A stretch of 64,000 nucleotides of DNA. Source: Nymphaea colorata (lineage: Eukaryota; Streptophyta; Magnoliopsida; Nymphaeales; Nymphaeaceae). The translations under genes were made by a program, and so were the position numbers. Location: positions 26,859,876-26,923,875 of the forward strand of contig NC_045142.1 in NCBI RefSeq assembly GCF_008831285.2, read 5' to 3'. Below are positions 22,690 through 54,845 of the stretch, in pieces (the first letter of the stretch is position 1; the number at the start of each line of letters is the position of its first letter). Under the pieces are notes generated by a model, which searched no databases, had not been told where the DNA came from, and worked only from the letters and a program-made list of their open reading frames with translations.

Positions 22690-22985
22690 GAAACTTATAA
22701 CCAAGCCATTACGTGTCCTCCATGAAAACTTTTTTGTGTGCAACTACTTGAAAACTTTTTACCACATGATGCAAAATATGTTATGTCAACATAAAATTTT
22801 CCTCTTTTCTTCGATTCAACCAAAAGCAAAGTACAGCTTCTCTTACATTTTCTCGCCTTTGCTTATTCGTGCCACTACGTCCAGTACTACAATTTTTTAT
22901 TGTTTTTTATTCTTTTAGCGCCATCGATCTTAACTTTTTCAAGTCATGTCGACGTAAAAGTCAGACATTGTGTTGTGACTCACGG
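22690..22985 (+). repeat. Third copy of the ndhN-downstream segment
   Basis: About 290 bp from AACCAAGCCATTACGTGTCC to GTTGTGACTCACG align closely with 34845-35136 and 40430-40720, the two copies downstream of ndhN and its pseudogene. This copy starts right beside the right-hand hAT-like edge. It may be a dispersed repeat or a stray fragment of the ndhN region. Confidence 0.8.
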
Positions 22986-27300: not shown

Positions 27301-27414
27301 AACTTGACAGTTTTTTGAAAAAACATTAAGAATCATTTGATCTTTCATTTGATTCCTCCCCAAATTAACATTTCAAATATTAAATGAAACTTAATAAAAA
27401 TCGTGGGTCTTACA
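24320..27414 (-). repeat. LTR of the chromovirus (3' LTR)
   Basis: Aligns over its whole length with 29926-32979. It ends, on the plus strand, with ATCGTGGGTCTTACA at 27414, next to the polypurine tract. Open frames inside it (up to about 165 codons, both strands) recur in the other LTR and show no domain. Confidence 0.9.
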
Positions 27415-29925: not shown

Positions 29926-32900
29926 TGTCACAACCCAATTTTTGACACCAAAAATTTTCTTTCATTTCTATAATAGCGGAAGCAATATTGAGTCATGACC
30001 AGAACATAAAGAAATCAGACATTGTTTTATTTCAATAATAAAATACTTGGACCCAAACAAAAATAACCACAAATCTCCAAAACCGACGTAGTGCCCAGAA
30101 TGCCAATGCCCTTCCATCACAAGACCAAAGTCGTCACTCCAAAGCCAAAATCTATCAAGGACTACCTGTAGAGATAGAAAGAAGGATCAGAATTCCTCTG
30201 AGTATGAGAAAATCCAGCCATGAATGGAACATGGCCCAAAAATAATATTTAGTTTCGTAATACAATTCCAAAAAGGCCTTATGAACTACAACCGTAAGTT
30301 TTCCAAAACTTTATACACACAAAAGTTACGACCCATTATCAGAACAAAACGAGGTGTGCACAACCTCCCAAAATTTCGTAGGCTTCCAACCGTGGTTCTC
30401 TAACAATGTCATGGTCATCGTGCCGAGCAACAGATATCCCCGTGGGCACTCACGGGCAGAACAGAACATCTCTTCACCAGGCGATCCAACGGATCGAGGG
30501 TACCTGCAGTGAAGCCTCCTGAGATATCCCAGATCGCTGCTGCAGCAGCATGGTCTCTCTAGGAACTCGGGTGGAGAGACCAGGAGTCTCGCTCCCAAAC
30601 AGAAACAGAACATAATCTCGGGCCCTTGTGCCGCCCAATACCCTGTGGGCCCTCCAGTACAGCCAGAGGAGTGTGCGTCAACAGTGAGCCATGCGCACCA
30701 CTACCTCCCGGGACGAAACCAAACACTGGGCAGAACAGAAAGCTCGCACTCGTATAAACCATCGCACAAAGTCCACGTTTCGCCTTCGAATTTCAAAAGT
30801 GAGGGTTTGCCAATGCTAGACATCGTCTAGTACCTCTCACAGAAACCGCCTTTAGGCTCGGTTTCCTAGACAACAGAAATAAGCCATTTCATAACTTGAT
30901 TTCATGGCAACAGAACAAAGTCAAATAGACTTGCAACGGTACAAAGCATATCACATCCAAAATTAACACAATAATAACTATTTAGAAGCAAGAGAGTTCA
31001 GCACCTCTTTTTCTGAAATTTAATTAAAACAAAAGGCATCAAAGAGCAATAACACATAACAATTCATTTTTCTACTGAAATTGCGAACCAATATACGAAA
31101 ACCCTCTTTTGGTGATTTCTAAGAACACGGAGGGTGCTATTTCGCTATTTCGTATGAGATATTAGACTCATGTTGAAAATAACTTTCACGAGCCTCTTTT
31201 TGCAAAAGATTTTCACAAAAGTGTTGCGGCATGAGTGCTTAAATATTATAGCAGCTTTTTCATAAATCTTGCTAATATGGTGGACCCGTTTTGTAATTTT
31301 ATAAAAATGGAGCACACTCATTTTTCTTCATTTCTTGCCCTCGTTTTCTCTCTCTTCGCACGAGAACTCCTCCCCTCCTCTCGTTCGACCGACGGTGACT
31401 TCCACCGCTTTTTCAACAACACAAAACCAGCAACGGGGAGAAACTTCTTCCCGTGAATACCAACGCGAGGGTTCCACGTCGCCGCCCACCATCCGACCGA
31501 CAGTGGAGCTTCCACCGGCGCGCCACCATTTCCCGTCGTCTTCAAAGGGGGAACGAACCAAAGAGGAAGAGATCGTCTTCCTCCCACGCTCGGACGCTAG
31601 GGTTCTTCCGGCGCTGCTCCAATCTACCGTCCGACCCTCTTAGCCGCCGCCGCCTCCTCTGCTGCTCCCGTTTTTCAGCCTCGCCTCGCTGCAACTGGGA
31701 TGAACTGATGGGGAAGGATGAACGACAGGAGGAGGGCGCTGCATTCCAACTTTACCCAAAACGCCTCTCTACCATCAGTGTGAGGGAAACAACTAGTTTT
31801 GGCCAGACCCTCCCCCAGCTTCAACGGCATCCTCTCAGTCTCCCTTTTTGTTACGACGAGGATGAACCGGCCCACAAGGAAGAATGACAGGAGGAAGCCT
31901 GCGTCTTCCATGCCATGTGATTCGTTTTTCCCAAATCGCCTCTGCTGCAACCACTCAAGGGACAACGGGTCCCCAGTCAATCGGCGACTGGTTCTGCTCG
32001 TAGATAGGGCTGGAGGTGCTTCCTCCCATCCCTCTTCTTTGTTTGCTGATTTTGGGTTTACCCTAAGTAAAGCAAAACTGGTCTTGCCTTCTATCGACGA
32101 CATTCTAAACTGCTCTTCTCTTTGGTTTGGTATTAACTTTAAGTTCGGGATGACAACAGAGTCTTCCCTCAATCAGCTTTGTATCGCAAATTCTGTGGCC
32201 AGACCCTTTGCGAGGGTGGTGGTATAAAAATTTCCTTATGTACCTTGTTCAAATCCTTTAACAAAGCCCCCATCATTTAGCTATACATGTTTTGTTTCAT
32301 AGTCGAAAGAAATCTTGGTTTCTCACAGATGGGCTAACGCATACAACTTACATCAACACCGAGAGTTTCAACACCCATCATGGCTAACACACGTCATACT
32401 TAACTGCTAGCATGCTTACATCTAGAAAATAAGTATCGTCACCCGTCGATTCTTCTCTAGGCATAGATCCACTATTGCATATAAATATATCTATTCATAA
32501 GAAATCAAACAAAAATACAAGGCTACATGATCTATTAACAACTGAATGTTTCCCATACCTTTCAAATCCAAGCTTAACTTTCAGCCGTAGTCTTCTTGCG
32601 CTTCCGGTTCCCTCACAACAGCCACCAATCTCTACCTCAACTAGAAGGACGGCAAACATGAGGACGTTCCTCACTCTCTCTTTCTTGAATCCTCTTGTTG
32701 CAGGACTCTCTAGTCGATGGCTGTAGCAATAACAGATGTTTATCTTTCATCCTCTCTCAAGTAAAGGAATCACGTCAGTTTCTCTTTCCCCTTCCTTTCT
32801 TTCCATACGAGCGGTTACCCTTGGCAGTTACAACCTCATCCCTATCTTTTCCATAATTATCTCTTTTATAATAAACTTGACAGTTTTTTGAAAAATCATT

Positions 32901-32979
32901 AAGAATCATTTGATCTATTCCTCCCCAAATTAACGTTTCAAATATTAAAAGAAACTTAATAAATATCGTGGGTCTTACA
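29926..32979 (-). repeat. LTR of the chromovirus (5' LTR)
   Basis: Aligned partner of 24320-27414, adjacent to the primer-binding site at 29911-29923. Its outer edge lies 215 bp before the ndhN ATG, so any LTR promoter fires away from ndhN. Confidence 0.9.
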
Positions 32980-33193: not shown

Positions 33194-34495
33194 ATGGCGA
33201 CCACCGTCTTTCAAATCCGGCAGGCGCCAACGTCCTTTTATGGCGATCAACTGCTTCTGTTGCGGAGTTCTTTGCGAGCTCCGGGCTGCGTGCAGATAAC
33301 CGGCCGCCGGAGCAGTGAAGGTCCATTGAGGAGGAAGGGCGGCGTCGGGATCAGGTGTGCACTTCAGGATCTGATCGGAGGAGACCTGTTGAAGTTCGAT
33401 TTGGGGCAGTGGCTTGATGACGTTGAGAAGCACAAGGCTCTGGCCATCTACTCTCCACATGAAGGTGGCTATGAGGGCCGGTACTTGACGCGGCTGAGAT
33501 ACCAAGGCTACTACTTTCTGGATCTGTCAGCTAGAGGTCTCGGGGATCCGGAGACCACCCTCACAAAAATCCACCCCGTCTGCCCGGTATCTCTCTGTCA
33601 CTCTCTACTCTCTGTTCTCCATACACTGCCACACATTATCCCTTTTAATTTGAATGATGTTTTCCAAGTAGACGACTTTCAATTTTCACTGTTTTGCTGA
33701 TAGTATTCAATGGTTCTTGTTGATATTTAGCCTACTTTGCTCACGCCATATTTGACCTTGACGCAGGCTCATTTGGGGAGGCAGCCCATCGCGAGATGGT
33801 ACTACCCACCGGAGATTGATTATAGACTTTCTCTGCTGCCGCCGAACAGCAAAGGATTGATTCTTTGGGTAATCGAAGCCAAGGTATCCTGAACTCTTCT
33901 CCTCATAAAACCGCGTCTTCTTCATGTCTCTCATGGTGCTTTCTTGGAAGAATGATGGAAACATGACAATGTTGGTTCTGCACAGGTTCTGTCCAAGGCA
34001 GAGTTACAGTTTCTAGCATTGCTGCCAAGCATACGGCCAAAAGTGAAGGTGATTGCAGAGTGTGGGAATTGGTAAGCCCAACACAGCATTCTTCTCCTTG
34101 GTAATGGAAAAGTTGCTCACATTGACCCCACCATCCTCCCCAGTATTTCATGGGGCTGTAAGGAATTTTCAGTAAAGCTCTGGGCAAGGGCATCCCAATG
34201 AGTGAGCTTCACATTGGCTTGCTTGGAGGTTACTTTGATTTCTCAGATTCTTTCTAAACGGTTCCATACTTGATATGTTCAATAAGATAGACAGGGGAGT
34301 TGGCACAGCTCAGGCTAACAACTGCCTCCCTGATATTGTAACAAGCTCACGTCTTTGCCAGTTAGTTACTTCTGTTTTCTAATCATGCATGCTTCAGAAA
34401 ATTGGCTAATGCGATTGAGTCCCTTTGGCAGGAGGAAATTCGTCTGGAAACCATTGAAGGAAATTGCAGGACTTCCTCTTGACGATGAAGCCTGA
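33194..34495 (+). CDS. ndhN: NAD(P)H-quinone oxidoreductase subunit N, chloroplastic
   Basis: Nuclear-encoded subunit of the chloroplast NDH complex, which drives cyclic electron flow around photosystem I. Exons: 33194-33586, 33767-33883, 33986-34071, 34432-34495, all with GT-AG borders, giving 219 aa. Residues 1 to about 54 look like a transit peptide (Ser/Arg-rich, ending near GIRCALQ). The mature part has the NdhN signature: SPHEGGYEGRYLTRLRYQGY, ARGLGDPETTL, HPVCPAHLGRQPIARWYYPP, SKGLILWVIEAKVLSKAELQ, and VIAECGNWRKFVWKPLKEIA at the end. I chose MATTVF rather than an in-frame site further upstream because it gives a proper transit peptide and lies just after the expected leader. The chromovirus edge lies 215 bp upstream. 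The 3' three exons are repeated as a pseudogene at 39.4 kb. Confidence 0.93.
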
Positions 34496-34839
34496 TCTGT
34501 CCTGCTACTGCTACTGAAAGTCTGTAAAGCCTCTGTTGTTGTCTATGGCCAATAGCCAAGAAAAGGCGCTGTCAAGGAGCTATGTGGCGCTTTTTTTATT
34601 TTCTTTTGTCTTGATGAGCATCCACCCCTAAGCCCATCATGCAAATTTGAGCGTTGCATGATACGCATGACTCAAAAACTTATGGTCGCATGACATATAT
34701 AAGGCGCAGATTGTGTACAGTTCTGCACCAAGTCTAAATCATGCCAAGCTCGTGTTTCCTTGGTGAAATCTATATGAATTCTTCTAGTGGATCCATGGCA
34801 GAGTATCAAAAAAGCTAAAACCAACAAGGCAAACTTTTG

Positions 34840-35136
34840 TAACCAACCCATTACGTGTCCTCCATGAAAACTTTTTTATATGCGGCTACATGGAAACTCA
34901 TTATCACATGAAGATGCAAAGTATATTATGCCAACACAAAATTTTCCTTCTTTCCTTCAATTCAACCAAAAGCAAAGTCCATGCTTCTGTTACATTTTCT
35001 CTAGCTTTTGCTTATCCGTGCCATCGCGTCCAGTACTACAATATTTAACTGTTTCTTATTATTTTTAGCGCCATCGATCGTAACTTTTTCAAGTCATGTC
35101 GATGTAAAATGTCAGACACTGTGCTGTGACGCACGC
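34840..35136 (+). repeat. ndhN-downstream segment, copy in unit A
   Basis: Aligns with 22690-22985 and 40425-40720. It shares the core CCATTACGTGTCCTCCATGA and AGCGCCATCGATCGTAACTT. Confidence 0.85.
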
Positions 35137-35960
35137 AGTGATGCCTTTAAGCAGAAAGTTAAGCAGTTTCGAAGATAACAATGAACTTGACGATGCTTTT
35201 CAAACCATGGGCAGTCTTGGTTGATTTATTTACATACGCTTGTGCAAACATGGACTGCTCATTGATCTTGGATCAAGTTAAAACCTTGTCATTGGGTAGC
35301 CTGAATCTTGATCTTGGATCCAGTCTTAAAACATTTTGGTGGCCATTGGTCTCACGCTCATTGTTACGAGCAAAAAAATAATGGCAAGAAACGTATTTTC
35401 TCATGTGTTCTAAAATGAGATGATTGAGCTTAAGGTTCTCGTTTGGTTATTGTGAGCAAAAATCATGTCTATCAAAACTATCCGGATAGTTTTTAAACAC
35501 TAGACCTTACCATCCATCCGTATGTATCATCATAATAAACTTTGAGCTTTAATTTAATCTCGCACACAACTTGTTTAACAAAACAAGTCAGAGCTCGAAT
35601 CATGCTTAAGCCAGCAAATTTTATTTGGGCCCGAATTGGTCTTTCTTTTACAACCCTCTAAAATAAATCTAAGGCAACCAACGGCAAGAGATATTTCTTG
35701 CACTCTCTTCATTATCGCATATTTGCTTTTTTTTTTTCGAAATTAATTATGTTCTTATTGGCAACCTTTATGTTTCAATCTATTTAAACTTTTTATTGAA
35801 TTGGAGGGGATGCAATATTATGGAAATTGGAATCTATCAGTATCCGGCGCATTAAAATGGTATTTTATTTTCTTTTGCTTTAAAACGATTGAAACAATGG
35901 GCTGCGATATTGGATGTATCTGCAGCCCCGCACATGGGTGTGTTGAATCGGAAAGACTTG
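35137..35960. other. UGT upstream spacer, unit A
   Basis: AT-rich spacer between the ndhN-downstream segment and the UGT leader. It matches parts of 40.72-42.15 kb, which is longer because of an insertion of about 600 bp. No gene was recognised. Confidence 0.6.
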
Positions 35961-35989
35961 GCTTGGCTTGCTAGGAAGAGAGAGAGAGA

Positions 35990-36002
35990 GAGGGGATAAA
36001 AC
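35990..36002 (+). promoter_or_regulatory. Single GATAAAAC box before UGT copy 1
   Basis: A (GA)n run leads into GGGGATAAAACCCCTGC about 75-85 bp before the UGT ATG. It is the single-copy counterpart of the box repeated eleven times before UGT copy 2. Whether it acts as a TATA-type element is inference. Confidence 0.4.
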
Positions 36003-36075
36003 CCCTGCAGACAGTGCTCACTGGAAGGAAGCTGAAACGCGCCTGAGAAGAAAAGGCGGTGAGATTGGTCCAGAT

Positions 36076-37748
36076 ATGGTGGTGCGTTCCATTAACACCG
36101 ACGGTGGAATTTCCGGCGTCCATGTGGTGGCCATGCCATACCCAGGTCAGGGCCACATCAACCCCATGATGAACCTCTGCAAGCGGCTAGCGTCCTTTGG
36201 CGACCTCCTCATCACCTTCGTCGTCACCGAGGAGTGGCTCAGCTTCATCCTCTCCTCCGCCGGCTCCGCCACTCCACCATCAAACCTCCGCCTCCGCTCC
36301 CTTCCCAACGTCATACCCTCCGAGAGGGCACGAGCCGATGATTTCCCCGCCTTCGTTGAGGCCGTCTACACCAAGATGGAGGAGCCCTTCGAGCGGCTGC
36401 TGGACCAGCTCGAGCCGGCGGTCTCAGCGATTGTGGCCGATTCCTACCTCCCTTGGGCCGTCGCCGTGGGCAACCGGAGGGACATCCCGGTGGCTTCTCT
36501 GTGGCCGATGGCAGCGTCCGTCTTCTCCATGTTGTACCACTCGGACGTGGTGGCGGAGCACCACCCTTTCCCCATACCCATCTCAGGTACTGACTCAATC
36601 CCCCCACCTCCTAAAAATCGGCGGCCTTGATAATGCAGCTATATGATCTTTTCAATGGATGTATTCCTTTTTACGAGTGGCTCTGAGAAGCGATCTGAAG
36701 ACCATGGTTAGATCAGTAGTTTGAGCTGTGTTTTGGAGTTCTTGTTATGAGCTGAAACTCTGTAGTATGCATCTTTTACAGAAAATAACACTGAATCTCT
36801 GTTTTCACTCACCCAGAGGTTGGAAAAGAGTATGTTGATTACATTCCAGGGGTCCCCAGAATCCGCCTGGCCGACCTTCCCACAATGTTCCATTCGAGCA
36901 CGGCAGTCGACCTCATGCGCTGGATCAAGGAGAGTTTCAAGATGGTGCCGAAAGCAACATGGCTGCTGCTGAATTCGTGCGAGGAACTGGAGGCCTCCGC
37001 CGTCGACGCCATACGGTCGCTCTTGCCCTCCAGAGTCCACCCCATCCGTCCCTTCACACTCCCACCAAGTCCGTCTCAAGAGAAGGCGGGCTTCGTCGCC
37101 AGTTACAGGGCCGAGGTCGACTGCTCCGCCTGGCTCGACGGTCGCCCTCCCAACTCCGTCCTCTACGTCTCGCTGGGCAGCTTCATGTCGGTCTCCGCCC
37201 CTCAGGTGGTGGAGATAGCGTTCGGCCTCCGGGCAAGCGGGTGCCCTTTTCTGTGGATCGCGCGCGAGCAGGACTGGCTGGCGAAGGAGGATTTCGACGG
37301 CAAGGGCCTGGTGGTGCCCTGGTGCCGGCAGATGAATGTACTCTCTCATCCCTCCGTCGGCGGCTTCTTCACCCACTGCGGCTGGAACTCCACCACCGAG
37401 GGCATATCTGCCGGCGTGCCCTTCCTCACTTTTCCCATTGCGGCAGACCAAACGTGCAACAGCAAGATGATAGTAGAGGATTGGAAGATCGGGCTGAGGG
37501 TGAGAGGGAGCAACATGGGCAGCTGCGACGACGAGTTGGTTGGGAGGGAGAAAATAGCGGAGATGGTGAGGGAGGTGATGGATTTGGATAGGAAGAGCAG
37601 CAAGGAAATGAGGAGGAGAGGCAGGGAGCTCAGGGAAGCATTGAACAGGGCAGGCCAGAGAGGTGGCTCTTCGGATGTCTCCTTTGATTGGTTCCTCAAC
37701 CAAGTCAAGGCCAAGAGACGCGCAGCCGATCTTCGTCTTCCTGTCTGA
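36076..37748 (+). CDS. UGT87A: UDP-glycosyltransferase, UGT87A type (copy 1)
   Basis: Family 1 glycosyltransferase moving a sugar from a UDP-sugar to a small molecule, normally in the cytosol. Exons 36076-36586 and 36817-37748 (GT-AG), 480 aa, normal length. The N-terminal AMPYPGQGHINPMMNLCKRL carries the catalytic His27, and Asp122 in VADSYLPWA fits the partner acid. The PSPG donor-binding box spans residues 339-382 (WCRQMNVLSHPS..HCGWNS..E....GVP...FP...DQ), with the final Gln that goes with glucose use. HVVAMPYPG.GHINPMMNLCK and TFVVTEEWL are characteristic of UGT87A. I start at MVVRSIN rather than an in-frame ATG in the GA-rich leader, because copy 2 shares only this part cleanly. The acceptor substrate is unknown. 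Copy 2 at 43.9 kb is its tandem duplicate. Confidence 0.92.
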
Positions 37749-38447
37749 TGTATTGTAAAAAAGATCAATGCAGGTTGTCCAGAAACAGGTCTATAAACCA
37801 GAGCAGGATTGGAGAACCTGAACATTTTTATTTTTCAACACTCGTTACAATAACGCTTATTTATAGTTACAAAAAAGGAATTAAGGAAATAATTTCACAT
37901 TCTTGAACGGCCTAGAATGTTTTCTGCAATAGAATTGTCCTTCACCTCTTTCATTTTTAAATGAAACTCGCATTTAAGATCGAATCAGTATCGTCCTCTT
38001 CCATTGAATGCGGATTCCGTGAAAAAGGATCTACCAATGATGGTAGGTAGGTAAGCGTGGGTGAAAGTATATTATTTGTCGGGTTCGTTTGAGAAGCAGA
38101 ATAAGCAATCGCAGATTTGCTTTATATTACAAGTTTTTTTGTGGAAAAATCCTTTCGACGCGCGCAATGTAAACCAATTTGATGTGGGCATGTTGTATAG
38201 GGTTCATTTGACAGTCGTCAGCTTTGGAAAATCGAATCAGAATTGGTCAGATACAGATTTACATATGAAATATGTAGCAATCAATATGTATCCATTTGAA
38301 TTCGATTCAGAACAGTACGGAGGAGGCAGAGCTGATCGTCTGCTTGATGCCTTGACCGATTTTTCTCCAAAGTTGGACTAACTCTGTCTTTGAGGAGGAA
38401 AACCCGGGGAGTGGGGGAAAAAAATGAAAATGATAAAGTGAAGAAAT
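37749..38447. other. UGT 3' region
   Basis: 3' untranslated and downstream sequence of UGT copy 1, matching 45.62-46.17 kb in unit B with indels. No gene was recognised. Confidence 0.6.
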
Positions 38448-38530
38448 GTCAGAAGTGGGATTTGAACCCACGCCCTCTCACGAGGACCAGAACTTGAGTC
38501 TGGCGCCTTAGACCACTCGGCCATCCTGAC
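38448..38530 (-). tRNA. tRNA-Leu (CAA)
   Basis: 83-nt nuclear-type tRNA on the minus strand. The acceptor stem GTCAGGA pairs with TTCTGAC (one G-U pair). The D-arm contains TGGCCGAGTGGTC (A box), the anticodon stem-loop is CCAGA-CTCAAGT-TCTGG with anticodon CAA (38494-38496 on the plus strand), followed by the long variable arm typical of tRNA-Leu and the B box GGGTTCAAATCCC. No intron. T-runs, as Pol III terminators, follow at 38427-38430 and 38418-38424. It is present only in duplication unit A. Confidence 0.95.
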
Positions 38531-38539
38531 GCGGTTGTT

Positions 38540-39396
38540 TGTCTTTCCCCCGCAACTATATAAACTTGAGCCACTTTCTTCATAGTCGACAAATACGGGA
38601 TCAGCACGGAGAAGATGAAAGGTAAATCACGAAAAAAATCTCTCAAGTAAATTATTCTCACATAAATAACAGTTGAAAGTAAAACTTGTATCGGCCATTG
38701 ATTGATACACATGAAAAGAAGTTGGTGCTGCTGGGTATCGTCAGTTGCTTTGTACGAGGCTGTTGGCATATCAGATCGGATACGGATCCACGAAACGTTC
38801 GGGTTAAAATCCATGTTTACAGCCCCTGTAGGATGGGATTGGCCGGTGCAGCTTAGTCCAACGCATCACAAAATGAAAAAAAAAAAAAAGAAAACGGGAC
38901 TTTTTATTTTCTCGTTTTACCCTTGTAAGAAGGAGGCTCTATCTTGCCCTTTATAGGTGGGGGGGGGGGGCACTAGAGTAATTTCAGATACCAGAACATG
39001 TTCGGATCCTGGGCATATGACCAGGGTTGGCTAGTATAATAGATATGTTTGTTTTGAGAAAAGAAAACCTCATTGACACGGCTGTCCTGTCCAGGCCGGC
39101 CTTCATTCTGCAAGGGACAAAGCCATGGCTGCTTTTTCTTCTTGTAAGATTTTACCATTCGAAAGTTCGTCATTTTTCTCAATCAAACAAAAGTGGCGTA
39201 ATTATAAGTGGAACGCTATTGGAGGCGTTCCGATCATCGGGCCGGCACCGGCGCACTTTTGTCCACGACTAAAACGTCCAGGTCGGTGATAGCTTTCTCC
39301 GTGGTCCTCCAAAGAAAAAGCGTTAGTGATCGGTCGGTAACGTTGATGGGGAGGGAGCTTTAATGGTCGAGGGCCAAGGCGTATACACATGACCGT
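38540..39396. other. End of duplication unit A
   Basis: Spacer with a G-run at 38958-38970. From about 38.97 kb it aligns with 46.19-46.61 kb, including ATTTCAGATACCAGAACATG and the stretch ending in CGTATACACA. No gene was recognised. Confidence 0.7.
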
Positions 39397-39419
39397 TACC
39401 ATATTTGAACTTGACGCAG

Positions 39420-40130
39420 GCTCATTTGGGGAGGCAGCCTATCGCGAGATGGTACTACCCACCGGAGATTGATTATAGACTTTCTCTGCTGCCGCCCAAC
39501 AGCAAAGGATTGATTCTTTGGGTAATCGAAGCCAAGGTATCCTGAACTCTTCTCCTCATAAAACCGCGTCTTCTTCATTTCTCTCATGGTGCTTTCTTGG
39601 AAGAATGATAGAAAAATGACAATGTTGGTTCTGCACAGGTTCTGTCCAAGGCAGAGTTACAGTTTCTAGCATTGCTACCAAGCATACGGCCAAAAAGTGA
39701 AGGTGATTGCAGAATGTGGGAATTGGTAAGCCCAACACAGCATTCTTCTCCTTGGTAATGGAAAAGTTGCTGAAATTGACCCCTCCGTCCTCCCCAGTAT
39801 TTCATGGCGTTGTAAGGATGTTTCAGTAAAGCTCTGGGCAAGGGCATCCCAGTTGATTAGGTTACTTTGATTTCTCAATTCTTTCTTTCTGAAGGGTCCC
39901 ATACTTTATATGTTCAATAAGATAGACAGGGGAGTTGGCACAGCTCAGGCTAACAACTGCCTCGCCAATATTGTAACGAGCTCACGTCTTTGCCAGTTAG
40001 TTAGTTCTTTTTTCTAATCATGCATGCTTCAGAAAATTGGCTAATGCGATTGAGTGCCTTTGGCAGGAGGAAATTCGTCTGGAAACCATTGAAGGAAATT
40101 GCAGGACTTCCTCTTGACGATGAAGCCTGA
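39420..40130 (+). pseudogene. ndhN pseudogene, exons 2-4 only
   Basis: Exons 2 (39420-39536), 3 (39639-39725) and 4 (40067-40130) of ndhN are retained with intact splice sites, but exon 1, with the start and transit peptide, is missing because the duplication break lies in intron 1. Exon 3 has one extra A (CCAAAAAGTGAAGG against CCAAAAGTGAAGG), shifting the frame. It cannot encode NdhN. It is produced by the tandem duplication, not by retrotransposition, since introns are kept. Confidence 0.93.
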
Positions 40131-40424
40131 TCTGTCCTGCTATTGAAAGTTTGTAAAGCCTCTGTTGTTGTCTGTGGCCAATAGCCAAGAAAGGAGCCAT
40201 GTATCCTTTTTTTTTTTTTTTTTCTTTCTTTTGTCTACATGAGCATGCACCCCTAAGCCCATCATGCGAATTTGAGCGTCGCATGATACGCATGACTCAA
40301 AAACTTACAGTCGCATGACATATATAAGCAGATTGTGTACAGTTCTTTGGTGAAATCTGTATGAATACTTCTAGTGGATTCATGGCAGACTATCAAAAAG
40401 CGAGAACGAGCAAGGCAAACTTTT

Positions 40425-40720
40425 GTAACCAACCCACTACGCGTCCTCCATGAAAACTGTTTTGTATGCAACTACGTGGAAACTCTTTATCACATGAAGA
40501 TGCAAAATATATTATGTCAACACAAAATTTTCCTTCTTTCCTTCAATTCAACCAAAAGCAAAGTGCATGCTTCTCTTACATTTTTTCTAGCTTTTGCTTA
40601 TCCGTGCCATCGCGTCCATGTACTACAATTTTTAACTGTTTCTTATTATTTTTAGCGCCATCGATCGTAACTTTTTCCAAGTCATGACGATGTAAATGTC
40701 AACACTCTGCTGTGACGCAC
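40425..40720 (+). repeat. ndhN-downstream segment, copy in unit B
   Basis: Aligns with 34840-35136 and 22690-22985. Confidence 0.85.
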
Positions 40721-41111
40721 GCAGTGATGCCTTCAAGCAAAAAGTCAAGCAGTTTCGAAGATAACAAAGAACTTGACGATGCTTTCCAAGCCATAGGCAG
40801 TCTTGATTGATTTATTTACATATGCTTGTGTAAACGTGGCCTGCTCATTGTGTTCAAGATCTTGGATCGAGTCCAAACCTTGTCATTGGGCCGCCTGAAT
40901 CTTGATCTTGGATATTCTTAAAAACATTTTGGTGGCAATTGGTGTCACCGTCATTATTAAAAGGAAAAAAGACTTAAAAAAGCAATGGCAAGAAACGTGC
41001 GTTTTTTCATGTGTTCTAAAATGAGATGGTTTAGCTTAAGGTTCTCGTTTGGTTATTGTGAGTAAAAATCATGTCTATCAAAATTATCCAGATAAATGTA
41101 AACACTATACC

Positions 41112-41725
41112 CATGTAGGCTTACATCGATCATGATCAAATGCTTTGTGGATTGTCTCCATTGATGCACAATATTGTTTTTTAGAGTCTTCTTACATACA
41201 AAGGATTTACTTGTTACTAATAAAGTCTAGCCTCGTTTCTTCCTTAGACCCTGTGTAGTATCATAGATCAGGGTCAATGTAGGGGAAATGAATGCATTTC
41301 CTACTATAAGTTAAATAAATGGAAGTGGAATAGATAGGACATAATTTGGATCATGCCACATCCCTTACTTTACCAGAGTTTACGAAGCCTATTCATGCAT
41401 GACATGATTCGGGTCTGATTCCTTCATTACCAAAATAATCTCGTCATTCATACAATGTGATTTGTTGATATTGCATCACGGGAGCTCATAAAACCGTATG
41501 CGCTCCATGGATGGAGGGTCAGAATGAGGAAATGAGGTGATCCAGATTCACGGAGTCTATTGAAGAATGTTCAATGTTTGAATCGAGGGTTCTTGTCTTA
41601 ATGCACTACTTATCTCATCTTTCTCGATAAAATTGGTAAAATATTTTTTTTTTTTGAATAAGTGGTGAATCTTTCTAGAACAGTATCAAGGATCTCCCTT
41701 ATGTATCATCATAATCACCATCCAT
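41112..41725. repeat. Insertion of about 600 bp specific to unit B
   Basis: Unit A runs directly from AAACACTAGACC to CCATCCATCCGTATGTATCA. Unit B has about 600 extra bases between the matching points. CTTATGTATCATCATAA occurs twice at its right end (about 41.69-41.75 kb). No protein similarity or clear inverted ends were seen, so it may be a small transposon or a deletion in unit A. Confidence 0.5.
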
Positions 41726-42159
41726 CCTTATGTATCATCATAAACGTAAGCTTTTTAATTTAACCTCGAACTCAACTTGTTTAAAAAACAAGTCAAGCTC
41801 GAGTAAGCCTAAAGCAAGGTAATTTAAGTTGAGCGCCAATTGGTTCCACTCGTTAAACACCCCTACACCCCTGGTTTTATGGGACTCACTAGAAGTCTTC
41901 AGTCTTTCTTATGAAACTCTATGAAATCTAAGGCAACCAATGGCAAGCGATATTTCTTGCACTCTTCATTATCGCATATTTGCTTTTTCTTGTTCGAAAT
42001 TAATTATGCACTTATTTGCAACATTTATGTTTCAATCTATTTAAACTTTTTATTGAATTGGAGGGGATGCAATATTATGAAAATTGAAATATTATCAACA
42101 TCAGGCGCATTAAAATAGTATGCTATTTTCTTTTGCTTTAAAACGATTGAAAAAATGGG

Positions 42160-43860
42160 CTGCGATGTATATGCAGCCCGCACATGGGTGTGTTGGGGAA
42201 AAGCAAAAAGAACCAAGCCCTCGGGTCGGAAAGACTTGGCTTGGCTTGCGAGGAAGAAAGAGAGAGAGAGGATAAAACTCTGCAGATGGTAGGCTCACTG
42301 GAAGGAAGCTCTGCCGACAATAGGCTCACTGAAAGGAAGCTCTGCAATTTCTGCTGTTTTTCCAGCTGCGAGATTGGATGTATATGCAGCCCGCACATGG
42401 GTGTGTTGGGGGAAGGCGAAAAGAACCAAGCCCTCGGGTCAGAAAGACTTGGTTTGGCTTGCGAGGAAGAAAGAGAGAGAGAGAGGATAAAACTCTGCCG
42501 ACAGTAGGCTTCGCTGGAAGGAAGCTCTGCAGACAGCAGGCTCACTGGAAGGAAGCTCTGCAAAAAGAGAGAGAGAGAGAGAGGATAAAACTCTGCACAG
42601 TAGGGTCACTGGAAGGAAGCTCTGCAATTTCTCCTGTTTTTCCAGGTAAGTGGGCTGCGAGATTGGATGTATATGCAGCCCGCACATGGGTGTGTTGGGG
42701 GGCAGGCGAAAAGAACCAAGCCCTCGGGTCAGAAAGACTTGGTTTGGCTTGCGAGGAAGAAAGAGAGAGAGAGAGAGGATAAAACTCTGCCGACAGTAGG
42801 CTTCGCTGGAAGGAAGCTCTGCAGACAGCAGGCTCACTGGAAGGAAGCTCTGCAAAAAAAGAGAGAGAGAGGATAAAACTCTGCAGACAGTAGGGTCACT
42901 GGAAGGAAGCTCTGCAATTTCTCCTGTTTTTCCAAGCAAGTGGGCTGCGAGATTGGATGTATATGCAGCCATGTATATGCAGCCCGCACACGGGTGTGTT
43001 GGGGGGAAGGCGAAAAGAACCAAGCCCTCGGGTCAGAAAGACTTGGTTTGGCTTGCGAGGAAGAAAGAGAGAGAGAGAGGATAAAACTCTGCCGACAATA
43101 GGCTTCGCTGGAAGGAAGCTCTGCAGACAGCAGGCTCACTGGAAGGAAGCTCTGCAAAAAGAGAGAGAGAGAGGATAAAACTCTGCAGACAGTAGGGTCA
43201 CTGGAAGGAAGCTCTGCAATTTCTCCTGTTTTTCCAAGCAAGTGGGCTGCGAGATTGGATGTATATGCAGCCATGTATATGCAGCCCGCACGTGGGTGTG
43301 TTGGGGGGAAGGCGAAAAGAACCAAGCCCTCGGGTCAGAAAGACTTGGTTTGGCTTGCGAGGAAGAAAGAGAGAGAGAGAGGATAAAACTCTGCCGACAG
43401 TAGGCTTCGCTGGAAGGAAGCTCTGCAGACAGCAGGCTCACTGGAAGGAAGCTCTGCAAAAAGAGAGAGAGAGAGGATAAAACTCTGCAGACAGTAGGGT
43501 CACTGGAAGGAAGCTCTGCAATTTCTCCTGTTTTTCCAGGCAAGTGGGCTGCGAGATTGGATGTATATGCAGCCATGTATATGCAGCCCGCACATAGGTG
43601 TGTTGGGGGAAGGCGAAAAGAACCAAGCCTTCGGGTCAGAAAGACTTGGCTTGGCTTGCGAGGAAGAGAAAGAGAGAGGATAAAACTCTGTCGACAGTAG
43701 GTTTCGCTGGAAGGAAGCTCTGCAGACAGTAGGCCCACTGGAAGGAAGCTCTGCAATTTTTCCTGAGGCAAGTGGGCTGCGAGATTGAGATTGGATGTAT
43801 ATGCAGCCCGCACCTTGGCTTGCGAGGAAGAGAGAGAGAGGATAAAACAGGATCACTGGA
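42160..43860 (+). repeat. About 300-bp promoter-proximal repeat array
   Basis: Units begin near GCGAGATTGGATGTATATGC at 42372, 42661, 42951, 43253, 43555 and 43789 (spacings 289, 290, 302, 302, 234), with a partial unit before. Each full unit holds ATGCAGCCCGCACATGGGTG, AACCAAGCCCTCGGGTCAG, GA-runs and two copies of GAGGATAAAACTCTGC plus nested CACTGGAAGGAAGCTCTGCA repeats. GATAAAAC occurs about eleven times. The matching region before UGT copy 1 is a single, shorter unit (35905-36030). The 12-14 bp that separate 302- from 290-bp units come from a duplicated ATGTATATGCAGCC. Confidence 0.95.
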
Positions 43861-43940
43861 AGGAAGCTCTGCCCCCAGTAGGCTGGCTGAAGGAAGCTAA
43901 AACGCGCCTGAGAACAAAAGGCGGTGAGATTGGTCCAGAT

Positions 43941-45618
43941 ATGGTGGTGCGTTCCATTAACACCGACGGTGGAATTTCCGGTGTCCATGTTGTGGCCATG
44001 CCATACCCAGGTCAGGGCCACATCAACCCCATGATGAACCTCTGCAAGCGGCTAGCGTCCTTTGGCGACCTCCTCATCACCTTCGTCGTCACCGAGGAGT
44101 GGCTCAGCTTTATCCTCTCCTCCGCCGGCTCCGCCACCCCACCACCAAACCTCCGCCTCCGCTCCCTTCCCAACGTCACACCCTCGGAGAGGGCACGGGC
44201 AGACGATTTCCCCGCCTTCATTGAGGCCGTCTACACCAAGATGGAGGAGCCCTTCGAGCGGCTGCTGGACCAGCTCGAGCCGGCGGTCTCAGCGATTGTG
44301 GCCGATTCATACCTCCCTTGGGCAGTCGCTGTGGGCAACCGGAGGGACATCCCGGTGGCTTCTCTGTGGCCAATGGCAGCGTCCGTCTTCTCCATGTTGT
44401 ACAACTCGGACGTGGTGGCGGAGCACCACCCTTTCCCCATACCCATCTCAGGTACTGACTCAATCCCCCCACCTCCTAAAAATCGGCGGCCTTGATAATG
44501 CAGCTATATGATCTTTTCAATGGATGTATTACTTTTTACGAGTGGCTCTGAGAAGCGATCTGAAGACCATGGTTTGATCAGTAGTTTCAGCTGTGTTTTG
44601 GAGTTCTTGTTATGAGCTTGAAAACTCTGTAGTATGCATGCTTTACAGAAAATAATACTGAATCTCTGTTTTCACTCACCCAGAGGTTGGAGAAGAGTAT
44701 GTTGATTACATTCCAGGGGTCCCCAGAATTCGCCTGGCCGACCTTCCCACATTGTTCCATTCGAGCACGGGAGTCGACCGCATGCGCTGGTTCAAAGAGA
44801 GTTTCAAGATGGTGCCGAAAGCAACATGGCTGCTGCTGAATTCGTGCGACGAACTGGAGGCCTCCGCCGTCGACGCCATACGGTCGCTCTTGCCCTCCGG
44901 AGTCCACCCCATCCGCCCCTTCACACTCCCACCAAGTCCGTCCCAAGGGAAGGCAGGCTTCGTCGCCAGTTACAGGGCCGAGGTCGACTGCTCCGCCTGG
45001 CTCGACGGTCACCCTCCCAACTCCGTCCTCTACGTCTCGCTGGGCAGCTTCATGTCGGTCTCCGCCCCTCAGATGGTGGAGATAGCGTTCGGCCTCCGAG
45101 CAAGCGGGAGCCCCTTTCTGTGGATCGTGCGCGAGCAGGAGTGGCTGGCGAAGGAGGATTTTGACGGCAAGGGCCTGGTGGTGTCCTGGTGCAGCCAAAT
45201 GAAAGTCCTCTCTCATCCCTCCATCGGCGGCTTCTTCTCCCACTGCGGTTGGAACTCCACCACGGAGGGCATATCTGCCGGCGTGCCCTTCCTCGCTTTC
45301 CCGATTGCGGTAGACCAAACTTGCAACAGCAAGATGATAGTGGAGGATTGGAAGATCGGGCTGAGGGTTAGAGGGAGCAACATGGACGGCAGCGGCGACA
45401 ATGAGTTGGTAGGGAGGGAGAAAATAGCGGAGATAGTAAAGAAGGTGATGGATTTGAATAGGAAGAGCAGCAAGGAAATGAGAAGGAGATGCAAGGAGCT
45501 CGGGGAAGCATTGAACAGGGCAGGCCAGAGAGGTGGCTCTTCGGATGCCTCCTTTAATTCGTTCCTCAACCAAGTCAAGGCCAAGGGACGCGCGGCCGAT
45601 CTTTGTCTTCCTGTCTGA
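43941..45618 (+). CDS. UGT87A: UDP-glycosyltransferase, UGT87A type (copy 2)
   Basis: Exons 43941-44451 and 44684-45618, 481 aa, intact. It has the same layout as copy 1: GQGHINP with catalytic His27, VADSYLPWA, and the PSPG box (WCSQMKVLSHPS..HCGWNS..E....GVP..AFP..VDQ). The N-terminal exon differs from copy 1 at only four of 170 residues, while the second exon differs at roughly 13 percent, including several positions in the PSPG box (R/S, N/K, V/I, T/S, T/A, A/V). An in-frame ATG at 43785 lies in the repeat-derived leader and is an unlikely start. The promoter has been rebuilt by the 300-bp repeat array, so expression may differ from copy 1. The acceptor is unknown. Confidence 0.92.
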
Positions 45619-46610
45619 TGTATTTAAAAAAGATCAATGCAGGTTGTCCAGAAACAGGTCTAAACCAGAGCAGGATTTGAGGAATTTCTTGAAAAGGTGA
45701 ACAGCCAATGTTTTCTACTTTTCTGTAATAGAATTGTCCTTCACCTCCTTCATTTTTAATTGAAACTTTTGCATCAACCTTTCACACGGGGTGTGGTTGA
45801 TGTTCGGTTTAGCGCATTTAAGATCGAATCAGCATCGTCCTCTTTCATTGAATGTGGATTCCGTGATACGAATTTGTAAATGAAGGGCGTGGATCTACCA
45901 TTGTAGGTAGGTAAGCGTGGGTGAAAGTATATTTATCGGGATACGGCTTTATATTACAAGTTTTTGGAAAAATCCTTCCCAACTCGTGCGCCAATTTGAT
46001 GTGGGCATGTTGCCAAGAAGAGTAAAGAGCTCATTCGACAGTGGTCGGCTTTGGAAAATCGAATCAGATATAGATTTTACATGTGAAATATAGCAATCAA
46101 TATGTATCCATTTGGATTTGATTCTGAACAGTACCGAGGAGGCAGAGCTGATCGTCTGCTTCATGCCATGTTTGCCTTGATAAGGGGGCACTAGAGTAAT
46201 TTCAGATACCAGAACATGTTCGGATATGACCAGTACAATAGATCTGTTTGCTTTGAGAAAAGAAGACCTCATTGATACGGCTGTCCTGTCCAGCCCGGCC
46301 TTCATTCTGCAAGAGACAAATAAAATGACCGGCCATGTTTGCCTTTTCTTCTTGTAAGATTTTACCAATTGAAAAGTTCGTCATTTTTCTCAATCAAACA
46401 AAAGTGGCGTAATTATAAGTGGAACGCTATTGGAGGTGTTCCGATCATCGCGCCGGCCGGCCGGCCGACCGACCGACCGGCGCACTTTTGTCCACGAGTA
46501 AAACGTCCAGGTCGGTGATAGCTTTCTCTGTGGTCCTCCAAAGAAAAAGCGTACTGATCGGTCGGTAACTTTAATCGTCGAAGGCCAAGGCGTATACACA
46601 GGACCGTTCC
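45619..46610. other. UGT copy 2 downstream region
   Basis: 3' untranslated region and the tail of duplication unit B. It contains a low-complexity CCGGCCGGCCGACCGACC stretch at about 46452-46484. No gene was recognised. Confidence 0.6.
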
Positions 46611-47309
46611 CATGGCTTTCAGGTTGTCAAGCAGACGACAGACACATCCTAATCAGGTCGATTCGAGAGAACGACTAATCTATTAATCAGATTGTTGAAA
46701 TCCCTCCACCATATGGATGTACGGCCTCGTTTGAAACGGAGGTTTCAGTTCATCACTGTACAATGTGACGCAAGAATGTTTAATCTCTCGGATACAAATA
46801 TATATGTTTTTGTCTTGTATTTTTGGGACATGCCTTTCATATTCATGTCATGCTTCCTAATTGTTTTTTATAGTGATGAAGTTCAATGTCTGTTCCAAAA
46901 TTTTATCAAGGGAGGGTGTTTTCCACCTTCGAAGTCATATCATCTTCAAACAATCTCCTACCATTTGGTGTCTGTCTTTCATAAGATCGATTCTTATTCT
47001 TACCAGAGTGGGATCGTTCTCTACATGGCGGAAGGATCACCTGCAACCCATCTTTTGTTCTTTCAAAAAAGCTACGGAGAGACCGGTTTACAAGGGACCG
47101 GTCGATTATAAGAAAGAGACGGGGAGTCGAAAGTTTCACGGGGACCAATCCATGGGTAGCAATCTAACATTTTCTCAGTTTCACAAAAGTAACGTGCACT
47201 GATTGACATTGCGAGCAGGATGTTATTAGATTTTGCTATACAACAGATCACGGGTTTCCTGAGATCTTCTCCATCTGAAAGTTTCTGGTCTGTGCCGCCT
47301 GAAAGTTTA
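46611..47309. other. Unique spacer beyond the duplication
   Basis: Sequence after the end of unit B, up to the 3' end of the minus-strand kinase-regulator gene. Only short, unsupported open frames were seen. Confidence 0.5.
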
Positions 47310-49270: not shown

Positions 49271-49610
49271 TATTTCTAGTCGATGATGAAGCTTACTGGA
49301 ACACGCTAGGAAAATGGAGTTATCTTACACAGGGAGGGAGACTTGTTTGGTTGGAGTGTAATAGGCGAACGAAACTGGCGGTGGCGGTAGTCTGCCAACC
49401 CCACCGCATCTCTCTCTCTCTCTCTCTCTCTTGCCTGCGTGTGAACTCTGTCCCTCCCTCTCTTCGACTGCTTAAAAAGGCGATAAAGTTTGACCATCTG
49501 TGTGGGACCCACTTTCTTACACGTGGTTCCCTTGATTCATTTAGTGCTACCAGCTGCGTGTAGGCACCTTTAAAAGTCAAGTTAAGAGAAAGAGAGAGAA
49601 TTATATATAT

Positions 49611-50030
49611 CTTGGTAGAATTGAAACTCAACATCAAATTTTTCGTCTATATGTTGCTAGAATCTAAAGCCAGTATGAAATTTTCACTCCAAGAGAGAGA
49701 GATAGATAGATCTTGGTAGAATTGAAATTCAGTATCAAATTTTTCGTCTATATGTTGCTAGAATCTAAAGCCAGTATGAAATTTTCACTCCAAGAGAGAG
49801 AGATCGATCTTGGTAGAATTGAAATTCAGCATCAAATTTTTCGTCTATATGTTGCTAGAATCTAAATCCGGTTTGTAATTTTCATTCCAATAGAGAGAGA
49901 AATAAAGTGATTTTGGTAGAATGGATACTCTGTATGAAATTTTCACTCTGAGAGACAGAGGGAGAGAGAGATATTATATGTCTGGGTAGAATTGAAACTC
50001 TTTATGAAATTTTCATTGAGAGAGAGAGAG
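49611..50030. repeat. Tandem repeat of about 100 bp upstream of the MAKR-like gene
   Basis: Units starting at 49611, 49712, 49809, 49912 and 49982 share CTTGGTAGAATTGAAA, ATCAAATTTTTCGTCTATAT and a GA-run. The first three are nearly identical, the last two are diverged and shortened. It lies about 340 bp before the gene's ATG. Confidence 0.9.
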
Positions 50031-51212: not shown

Positions 51213-54150
51213 TCGAAACAAATTAGCGTTGGACCTACTAAATGAATTTTGTTAATGAATTCAATAACCTGAATTGGAAATCCGATCAGTAATGGGATAT
51301 ATGTCACACATTTACATCTAGATAAGGCCATGGAACATTGTTCACATTTCACAGTACGAAACAGAATCGCTTGCGTTCTTTGGAACACTACGTTTTAAAG
51401 AATGAATGCAGTGTTCCAGTTACCAAACACCCTCGATGGATTCGAATTCGGCCCATGCCTGCACGAATCATGTTGGATTTGCCTCTTAATTGTAATCAGA
51501 TAGCGTAGTACATTTTGCTTGTCCAAGCCAAATGCTACCTACTTGGCCACTTAATTACGATAGATTATGCGTTATTCAACTTAGCTGAACCCATCGTTAT
51601 CCTATTGTAATTAAAACTATAACTGACCTTTCAATTTCATAATCTTGCTCAATTTAAAAAGGATTGAGACTACTTATTCATTCGTGTTGCTTGCGTATTC
51701 AAACTTATTACCTAATCGTTTCAAAAAAGGACTGAAGAAAAAAAAAATATTTAGAGGTGTCCTTTTCATAATTCAACTGCATATATTCGTACAAGATCCA
51801 GTGAATTCAAAATAATTCGAACACAGCCGGATCAAAATAACAACAATGGCATCTTCTTTTTCTGTTTGTTTTTACTTATCTTTTCTTTTTCTCCAATGTT
51901 AAATCAATTTTCGGACATACGTTATTAAATTTACGCATCGATTCTTGTAGTGCTGAACAGAAACGATATGTAGAAAAGACCACCCAAGTTCTGAATTCCA
52001 GCATCCAGCCTAACCCCACTTGAGCTCTTGGACTCTGGCGAGGCAGTCGCTTTGAACTCTGAATTTACAAGGCCAGGCAAAGAACTTCAATCTTAACCGT
52101 AATTAGACCACCTGTGTTCACATAAGATCTCGGAAATAATTTTCATTGGAATTTTGATGGAAAGGGCACATAGAACAACATGAAACGCCAACCTGCTATT
52201 TTTCAAAAAGAAATTTGTCGTGTGTGATTATGGCTCGAAGGCTATCATCTTTGCAGTTGATCTGCAACAATCCTGATGTGGGGATATCGTTGGCAGCTCT
52301 AATACTTGTCTCTTCCATTGACGGGGTGAAAGGAGTGGCCCACGATCAAGGTGCAACGTTTAATGAAGATGGTCTGTTTGATAAGTTGGTGGCCACTTTG
52401 TCACTTTGTCTGAAAAAAGAAGGCCCCGGTGATGCTTATCAGAGCGAATCGCGAATTCAAAAGGGAAGGAACAAATTCTCAAGGAATTTTAATGGAGTTC
52501 ACACCTGAATGCGTGCCCACAAGGGAGTTTTGGATGGAGACTCAAGAGCTCTGATTGAGTAATGTGACACTTCGATTGACCACCTTCTTACTTAGCAGGT
52601 TCCATTGACGGCCGTGAGGGATTCCCCTGAAATTAAACTTTCTTTTCTTCTTCCAAATCCAGTCCACCTGGCATCATCTGGCTCCTAGTTGATCATCCCG
52701 ACCAAACCAAGTTGACTTTCTACCAGAAGCCAAAATACATAAAATGATTTGGTTCTGGAAGTAGATCGAAGCATTGCTGTAATGTTCACTGCCATTGATT
52801 CGATGGCAGGCTTCCAATGCGCTGGAGAATTCTGTGGAGAGGTTGCGTCTAGTTAGGGATGGAAAAGAACAACCGAAACATTCGGAAAAAATCGTTTCTG
52901 CATGTGTTTCAACAGCGTCAAGCGCAAGCTCAACATGTCCGAACGGAGAAAGTTCACTTGGCTGCCATGACATTATACTGCTGCAACCTTTCGGTTCTGC
53001 TATCTTTCTTCATCGAGATCTACCATTACATTGTCGATCTGTCATCCTCTCTTCAACAGGTCTCAGGAGGATTTTCCTCACTCGAGCCACACTTGCCTAA
53101 AACAGCCAAATTAATTAAGAACCGGATACAGAGAAGATTTCATTAAATTGTTAATTGTGGTTCTTGTAGAATGAAACAATTACACACATAATGAGTGTGC
53201 ACTTTCACCAACACTATCAGGTTCTCTCCCAATCCACCGGAAAGAAAAAAAAAAATCCCTTCTCAGCAAGAAATTTAATGTTTGAAAAAGATGGCTGTGA
53301 GCCTTCCTTTCTAATGAAAGTGCTTCTCAACCCTTTTTGTTTTTTTTTTTTCTGGACGACAGACCTTGCAATAAGGAAAATGATTCACCGAATTTCAGGA
53401 GAAACACACTTTTAAAAAGTAGGAAAATACTTTCATGTTGAATGTTGCCGATTGTCTGCATGCAAAGTAGGGCAGCAAGGGATGCATTTGTCTGTCTCGA
53501 ATCCCAAGGCCGTGCAAATGCAAGAAGTGAGGAAGACGAAGGTATGCCAAGTACGGTTAAATATTTCAAAATTTCATGGCAAACTCATCTTATCTTGCCA
53601 CAGAAGAGTCCGGACAACTTACCCTGCCATTTGGCAGTTCCATGATTGAATATTTGGTAACTGGCTATGACAGATGAGGGACGCCATTGGTTGAGCCAGA
53701 CTGACATAAGAAGAGTCAATGGCCTTCAATGAATGGAAATATTTTTTATCAAATTTAGTATCCTTTTGTTGGACTTACGGGTTCAATTAGTACAATGAAT
53801 TGACCATAGTCCATCAATGATTTGCCTTTGAGTCTTAGCTAAGATATGTTTAGTGCGTAGCATGCCAAGCTATTGTACACAACGCACCGATCAACATATC
53901 TACAGCAAATGGCTGCTCATTGACTATACTTAGTTGATGCCACCAATTCCTCTTTTATTCTGAATCTGCTGACTTGGCTGATTTCTTGTTGCTGATTGTT
54001 TTTGCAGTTCATACCTTTGAACACCGCTTAAAGGAGGCGAGAAGTTTTTCCAAGCCAGCGCCCACGCACGCTTTGCTTCACAGAACATTGCCAAATTTTA
54101 TCTGAAAAAAAAAAAAAAACAACTCATTTTACGATTCAATATCTGAGATT
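50040..54150. other. No gene recognised
   Basis: AT-rich intergenic sequence with a (TA)n run at about 51.17-51.21 kb. Several open frames of 60-100 codons (for example 52215-52508 and 52859-53146) lack recognisable domains, splice support or codon bias. No clear transposon ends were found. Confidence 0.5.
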
Positions 54151-54845
54151 TTCAGGAAAAAAGAAGCTGAGTCTCAGACCTGCAACTTTTTCTTCTGAAA
54201 TGTTTTGTGACTGTCAATCGTCAAATCGATGGTAACATAAAGGAAGAAAACAAGTTACGAAGAAAGAATTTCGAAATGGTGGTGGAGAGGTTGAAGAAAT
54301 TGGTGAAAATTCAGGGAGTTTCGCAGTATGAGAAGTTCTGCATTTACGTCATTCAAACGCTCTTCTTTTTCTCTAGAAAGACTGCGATTTTTCAGGAAAA
54401 AAGAAGCTGAGTCTCACACCTGCAACTTTTTCTTCTGAAATGTTTTGTAACTGTCAACCGTCAAATCGATGGTAACATAAAGGAAGAAAACAAGTTACGA
54501 AGAAAGTGTTTCGAAATGGTGGAAGAAATTGGTGAAAATTCAGCGAGTTTCGAAGGTCTGCATTTACGTCATTCAAACGGTCTTCTTTTTCTCTAGAAAG
54601 ACTGCGATTTTTCATGAAAAAAAGAAGCTGAGTCTCACACCTGCAACTTTTTCTTCGGAAATGTTTTGTAACTGTCAATTGTCAAATCGATGTTATCATA
54701 AAGGAAGAAAACAAGTTACGAAGAAAGTGTTTCCAAATGGTGGTGGAGAGGTTGAAGAAATTGGTGAAAATTCAGTGAGTTTCTCAGTACGAGAAGTTCT
54801 GCATTTACGTCATTCAAACGCTCTTCTTTTTCTCTAGAAAGGCTG
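54151..54845. repeat. Tandem repeat, about 220-240 bp x 3
   Basis: Copies start with TTCAGGAAAAAAGAAGCTGA at 54151, 54391 and 54611 (spacing 240 and 220) and share CAAATCGATGGTAACATAAA and CATTTACGTCATTCAAACG. Copies are roughly 93-95 percent alike by eye. Short open frames through it simply follow the repeat. Confidence 0.92.

Follow-up and report, generated by a model that had tools for sequence, protein, structure and literature searches.

The window analysed here, 64,000 nucleotides without any N, is part of a contig of 27.3 Mb in a genome of 407.8 Mb and 783 contigs; its gene content points to a flowering plant. Self-BLAST of the window revealed two head-to-tail duplicated segments, A and B (Table 1), each with an ndhN-like 3' part and one UGT gene. 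The open reading frame at 33002-33700 matches Pfam NdhN. Since the start of segment B (39399) falls inside the duplicated ndhN-like 3' part, the two UGTs are probably separated by a truncated copy of ndhN. UGT copy 2 is a plant UGT with an open frame and a UDPGT domain (Pfam UDPGT, E 1.2e-18); the best match among plant UGT structures is 2pq6_A (E 3.8e-60). UGT copy 1 has a 93.75% DNA match to copy 2 by self-BLAST and also has an open frame, indicating that it is a plant UGT as well. With inferred splice sites, the exons are 36076-36586 and 36817-37748 in copy 1 and 43941-44451 and 44684-45618 in copy 2. The two proteins are different or gapped at 39 aligned residues, with dN 0.035, dS 0.110 and dN/dS 0.32 by NG86, and dN 0.033, dS 0.137 and dN/dS 0.24 by YN00. 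The subfamily is presumably UGT87A. Among those listed of 152 genome matches, the next full-length relative shares 40% identity in exon 2, and no in-genome outgroup for the pair was found among them. Twenty neighbouring 10-kb stretches gave no further UGT or array-unit match at E 1e-5.

Several other features of the region and genome were observed. At least 12 genome matches to exon 2 of UGT copy 2 are fragmentary and broken up, 50-74% identical, and span approximately residues 130-256. All five fragments examined (L040, L042-L045) contain pieces matching 45091-45339 and 45404-45501, inside a dispersed element of approximately 0.6-0.8 kb whose ends are GC-rich and inverted-looking. This element is apparently a non-autonomous transposon with a captured piece of a UGT; its ends are presumably hAT-like. 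The window also contains a second tandem duplication of approximately 3.1 kb (24322-27414 and 29928-32979, 95.4% identical), a 300-bp sequence present three times at approximately 85% likeness (22695-22984, 34837-35135 and 40423-40721, two of them within the duplicated segments), further tandem arrays at 49590-49943 (period 101 bp) and 54149-54853 (period 240 bp), and a retroelement integrase zinc-binding domain (Pfam Integrase_H2C2) on the minus strand at 28389-28988.

Table 1. Positions of the duplicated segments, the UGT genes, the array units and the leader features in the window.
Feature	Position	Strand	Basis
Segment A: ndhN-like 3' part, UGT copy 1, downstream sequence	33746-39402	+	self-BLAST
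Segment B: UGT copy 2 and array	39399-46613	+	self-BLAST
UGT copy 1, 480 aa, open frame	36076-37748	+	spliced translation
UGT copy 2, 481 aa, open frame	43941-45618	+	spliced translation
Copy-1 single short unit, right edge approximate	35902-36033	+	alignment, motif positions, BLAST edge
ATG-free stretch before copy 1, 139 nt	35937-36075	+	ATG scan
TATTTAAA, TATA-like, upstream of array	42038-42045	+	word match; also found at 35781, 5' of copy 1
Unit B1, partial, diverged, 206 bp	42160-42365	+	unit alignment
Array core, full units B2-B5, 2-4 differences per pair	42366-43548	+	unit alignment
Unit B2, full, 289 bp	42366-42654	+	unit alignment
Back-to-back splice acceptor/donor-like site, near end of B2	42628-42651	+	motif scan
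Unit B3, full, 290 bp	42655-42944	+	unit alignment
Unit B4, full, 302 bp	42945-43246	+	unit alignment
Unit B5, full, 302 bp	43247-43548	+	unit alignment
Unit B6, partial, 228 bp, without ~62-bp module	43549-43776	+	unit alignment
Unit B7, partial, fused to leader, right edge approximate	43777-43897	+	alignment, motif positions
ATG-free stretch before copy 2, 137 nt	43804-43940	+	ATG scan

Directly 5' of UGT copy 2, and adjoining this intact gene, is a tandem array of approximately 1.7 kb (42160 to approximately 43897). TRF called a period of 302 bp at 42378-43756 (4.6 copies, score 2445), and unit alignment resolved seven units, of which four are full (289, 290, 302 and 302 bp) and three partial. 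With head-to-tail copies and a homogenised centre, the array is a minisatellite, or composite tandem repeat. A module of approximately 62 bp, comprising a second GA-run and box, is present in B2-B5 and missing from B1, B6, B7 and the copy-1 unit; a 14-bp duplication is found only in B4, B5 and B6, and a sub-repeat of approximately 31 bp is nested inside the units. The first-pass annotation had described a 300-bp repeat array before copy 2, and both TRF and the unit alignment confirm that it is genuine. It put the units at approximately five full plus two partial; the alignment gives four full and three partial. Alignment and motif positions agree with its description of copy 1 as preceded by one short unit with one box, so that the array precedes one paralogue only. 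Also borne out is its statement that the array reaches close to the ATG: the last GATAAAAC box, at 43841, is 100 bp 5' of the ATG at 43941, and recognisable repeat ends near 43897. The claimed eleven or so GATAAAAC boxes, GA-runs and nested repeats were likewise recovered, as 11 boxes, 10 GA-runs of at least (GA)4 and 16 GGAAGGAAGCTCTGC copies.

On both strands of the window, GATAAAAC occurs 14 times, against 3.14 expected, and 14 was reached in 0 of 100 shuffles. In addition to the 11 boxes in the array, one is before copy 1 (35995, 81 bp 5' of the ATG at 36076) and two are elsewhere. All 16 window copies of GGAAGGAAGCTCTGC are within the array. The 10 GA-runs of the array compare with one before copy 1, and matches to RGARAGRRA on the + strand number 36 in the array and four in the copy-1 unit. 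It is possible to read these numbers as a platform on which GAGA-binding BBR/BPC factors act by dosage: ten long GA-runs in place of one would bind more factor, leading to Polycomb repression or to raised activity of copy 2. In a binding study, signal strength is correlated with how many GAGA motifs are present, and both Arabidopsis and rice show an enrichment of extended motifs close to transcription starts (PMC6477699). In the R6 promoter of apple MYB10, a 23-bp site present in five additional copies is reported to raise promoter activation (PMC5671642). However, RGARAGRRA counts explain binding poorly in the same binding study (PMC6477699), GA-runs are common locally (200 kb of flank has 60 on its two strands), and the motif may have been passively copied with the repeat. 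A role of the array as such a platform is rather unlikely.

Coding and structural functions of the units were considered and rejected. None of four array open reading frames, three on the minus and one on the plus strand, has a Pfam match, and reading frames shift between units because 302 bp is not divisible by three. As RNA, unit B5 folds with a z score of -1.73, and 5 of 100 shuffles fold equally well; as DNA, the z score is -0.30, and 35 of 100 shuffles fold equally well. Neither fold stands out.

The units differ in their divergence. Among themselves, B2-B5 have 2-4 differences in 285-302 sites (0.7-1.4%), whereas the edge units B1, B6 and B7 have 21/197, 16/125 and 11/140 differences (8-13%). 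Relative to B2-B5, differences are 10/202 to 13/204 for B6, 15/192 to 19/192 for B1 and 13/145 to 14/141 for B7. The copy-1 unit is closest to B7 (8/138 differences), with more differences from every other unit, although some of its pairs align ambiguously (13/158 or 18/160 with B1). Counting substitutions only, segments A and B differ at 128/1686 sites in the largest flank and at 56/387 immediately 5' of the array. The far end has 24/400 and the UGT intron 7/230, while the 43 bp adjoining the ATG have 2/43 and the sequence past the stop 1/63. The three adjacent core pairs, pooled, differ at 11/875 sites, fewer than in the largest flank (Fisher p 1.3e-13); the contrast is weaker against the UGT intron or the 3' flank. 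Because divergence between the segments is uneven (1/63 to 56/387), dates are only rough, and gene conversion is possible. Also just upstream of the array, approximately 605 bp of segment B (41112-41716) are absent from segment A, with an 18-bp direct repeat near the right end.

The edge units are about as diverged as the duplicated segments and the core is nearly identical, indicating that the array was founded early and its centre re-amplified recently. This two-phase history bears on the first-pass annotation, which had the sequence expanding before copy 2, a wording that assumes copy 1 to be the ancestral state. Since the edge units are about as diverged as the segments themselves, copy 1 may have lost units; alternatively, the expansion may never have occurred there. 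The near-identity of the four central units also makes it likely that array length differs between individuals. The same near-identity makes units easy for assemblers to miscount, and the count comes from a single assembly, so a collapsed or over-assembled copy number was considered. Each core unit is distinct by substitutions or indels, and the array is just 1.7 kb within a 27-Mb contig and a window without N; an error in copy number is therefore extremely unlikely.

A genome search with a 303-bp unit, in which very common words are skipped, matched nine places, each of them inside the array or the copy-1 unit. As far as one genome search shows, the unit is locus-specific, which speaks against a dispersed repeat or transposon. 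Exact copies of the 15-mer GGAAGGAAGCTCTGC number 24 genome-wide: 16 belong to the array and eight lie elsewhere. Four of these eight outside sites were examined; three are in one repeated element and one is unrelated, with little in common beyond the word. The 15-mer is also found in pairs with spacings of 7251, 7323 and 7335 bp (C14, C283, C291; L046, L047), resembling two long terminal repeats, and the two stretches on C14 are 98.6% identical. A 21-base word of the unit had no exact match in viral contigs. No paper on a repeat upstream of this kind of UGT was found among the literature matches listed.

The effect of the array on copy 2 would depend on where transcription starts. ATG-free stretches of 137 and 139 nt precede copies 2 and 1, whereas the array holds 24 ATGs; a start within the last unit, giving a short leader, therefore fits better than an array-long leader. 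The conserved ATG-free leader and a last box 81-100 bp from the ATG lean against a changed start site, although an ATG-free stretch could have arisen by chance. A start at the upstream TATTTAAA would instead place the array in a leader of approximately 1.9 kb, with upstream ORFs or splicing limiting translation of copy 2. TATTTAAA is kept upstream of both copies, 295 bp before the copy-1 ATG and 1903 bp before the copy-2 ATG. It fits 7 of 8 positions of the TATA consensus, a hand-entered 8-position pattern, compared to 6 of 8 for GATAAAAC; as the better TATA-like word, it would favour a start before the array. From TATTTAAA at 42038 to the copy-2 start there are 28 upstream ATGs, 24 of them in the array, and none of the 28 upstream ORFs extends as far as the start codon. 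Copy 1 would likewise carry six upstream ATGs between its own TATTTAAA and start codon. Acceptor-like sites end at 42365, 42645 and 43539, and there is one CAG|GTAAGT; this CAGGTAAGT, at 42643-42651, occurs nowhere else on the + strand of the window. These splice-like signals are given little weight because they vary between units and 45 acceptor-like sites of equal grade are found on the + strand of the window. An array-long leader is distinctly unlikely.

A bolder reading combines both kinds of signal. Each unit could be a complete core promoter, with a GA-run, a TATA-like box and the beginning of a leader, providing up to eleven tandem start regions for copy 2, while back-to-back splice sites near unit ends would remove repeats from long leaders. 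If this were true, repeat number would tune both start choice and translation. Such an arrangement is highly improbable.

Composition of the units raises the question of methylation. The CpG observed/expected ratio of B5 is 0.43, compared to a median of 0.81 for GC-matched 302-bp pieces of the window, and only 2 of 215 overlapping GC-matched pieces are as low. The array may therefore draw RNA-directed DNA methylation that silences copy 2, as at Arabidopsis FWA, whose promoter repeats are described as heavily methylated (PMC2270340). Yet the ratio is similarly reduced in the copy-1 unit (0.55, six CpGs), and between aligned units CpGs have been both gained and lost, so the deficit may be inherited composition. 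Moreover, the repeat structure itself is reported to be dispensable at FWA (PMC2270340), and the copy-2 frame is open. Silencing of this kind is very unlikely.

The reading favoured here, with somewhat better than even probability, is that the array is a promoter-proximal minisatellite with a modest effect on copy 2 or none. It would have been built by repeated unequal exchange or slippage. Short units were presumably duplicated long ago; one of them would then have gained the ~62-bp module with its second GA-run and box, and this longer unit would have been amplified recently to four copies. Copy-2 transcription probably continues to begin within the last unit or shortly downstream of it, so that its leader would be short, as in copy 1, and with such a start the array would act as added proximal promoter DNA. 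It would multiply GA-run sites and shift distal upstream sequence approximately 1.6 kb farther from the start. An effect on copy-2 expression is plausible, and the likeliest outcome is a modest, copy-number-dependent change or none. Plant promoter repeats can alter activity (PMC5671642, PMC5996158). In a survey of fungal promoter repeats (n=143), 4.3% of the tested relationships with expression were significant, indicating that promoter repeats are often without effect (PMC3516485).

Either outcome would be informative, since the proximal promoters of these adjacent open-frame paralogues differ by a tandem array of young age. Should repeat number alter copy-2 expression, the locus would be a natural test of a duplicate gaining regulation through a mutable, reversible element, not through point mutations. 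If there is no effect, the array would exemplify a promoter minisatellite tolerated 100 bp from a coding start.

The array is ordinary in kind and joins known promoter repeats such as apple MYB10 R6 and Arabidopsis FWA. Repeat-number change in a UGT promoter is familiar from the TA repeat of human UGT1A1; that repeat is a dinucleotide in a TATA box, unrelated to the array unit. In apple MdMYB10 R6, as at this locus, a short promoter unit is multiplied before a plant gene, and its multiplication is reported to change promoter activity (PMC5671642). R6 combines a unit of only 23 bp with autoregulation through a proven MYB site, whereas the UGT array has a composite unit of approximately 302 bp with candidate sites only; moreover, the apple comparison is between alleles and the present one between paralogues. 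At FWA, direct repeats adjoin the transcription start, as the array adjoins the predicted start region; FWA repeats are reported to have arisen independently at least four times, with variable number (PMC2270340). FWA repeats are SINE-related and methylated, whereas the UGT unit matched no other locus in one genome search. The dual repeat of Phalaenopsis GDPS is likewise a repeated promoter segment, tied there to activity, and 228-bp promoter repeats of cotton RLC1 are cited in the same report as tied to promoter activity (PMC5996158). As described there, GDPS and RLC1 have two copies with tested function, whereas the UGT array has four full and three partial units and a putative function.
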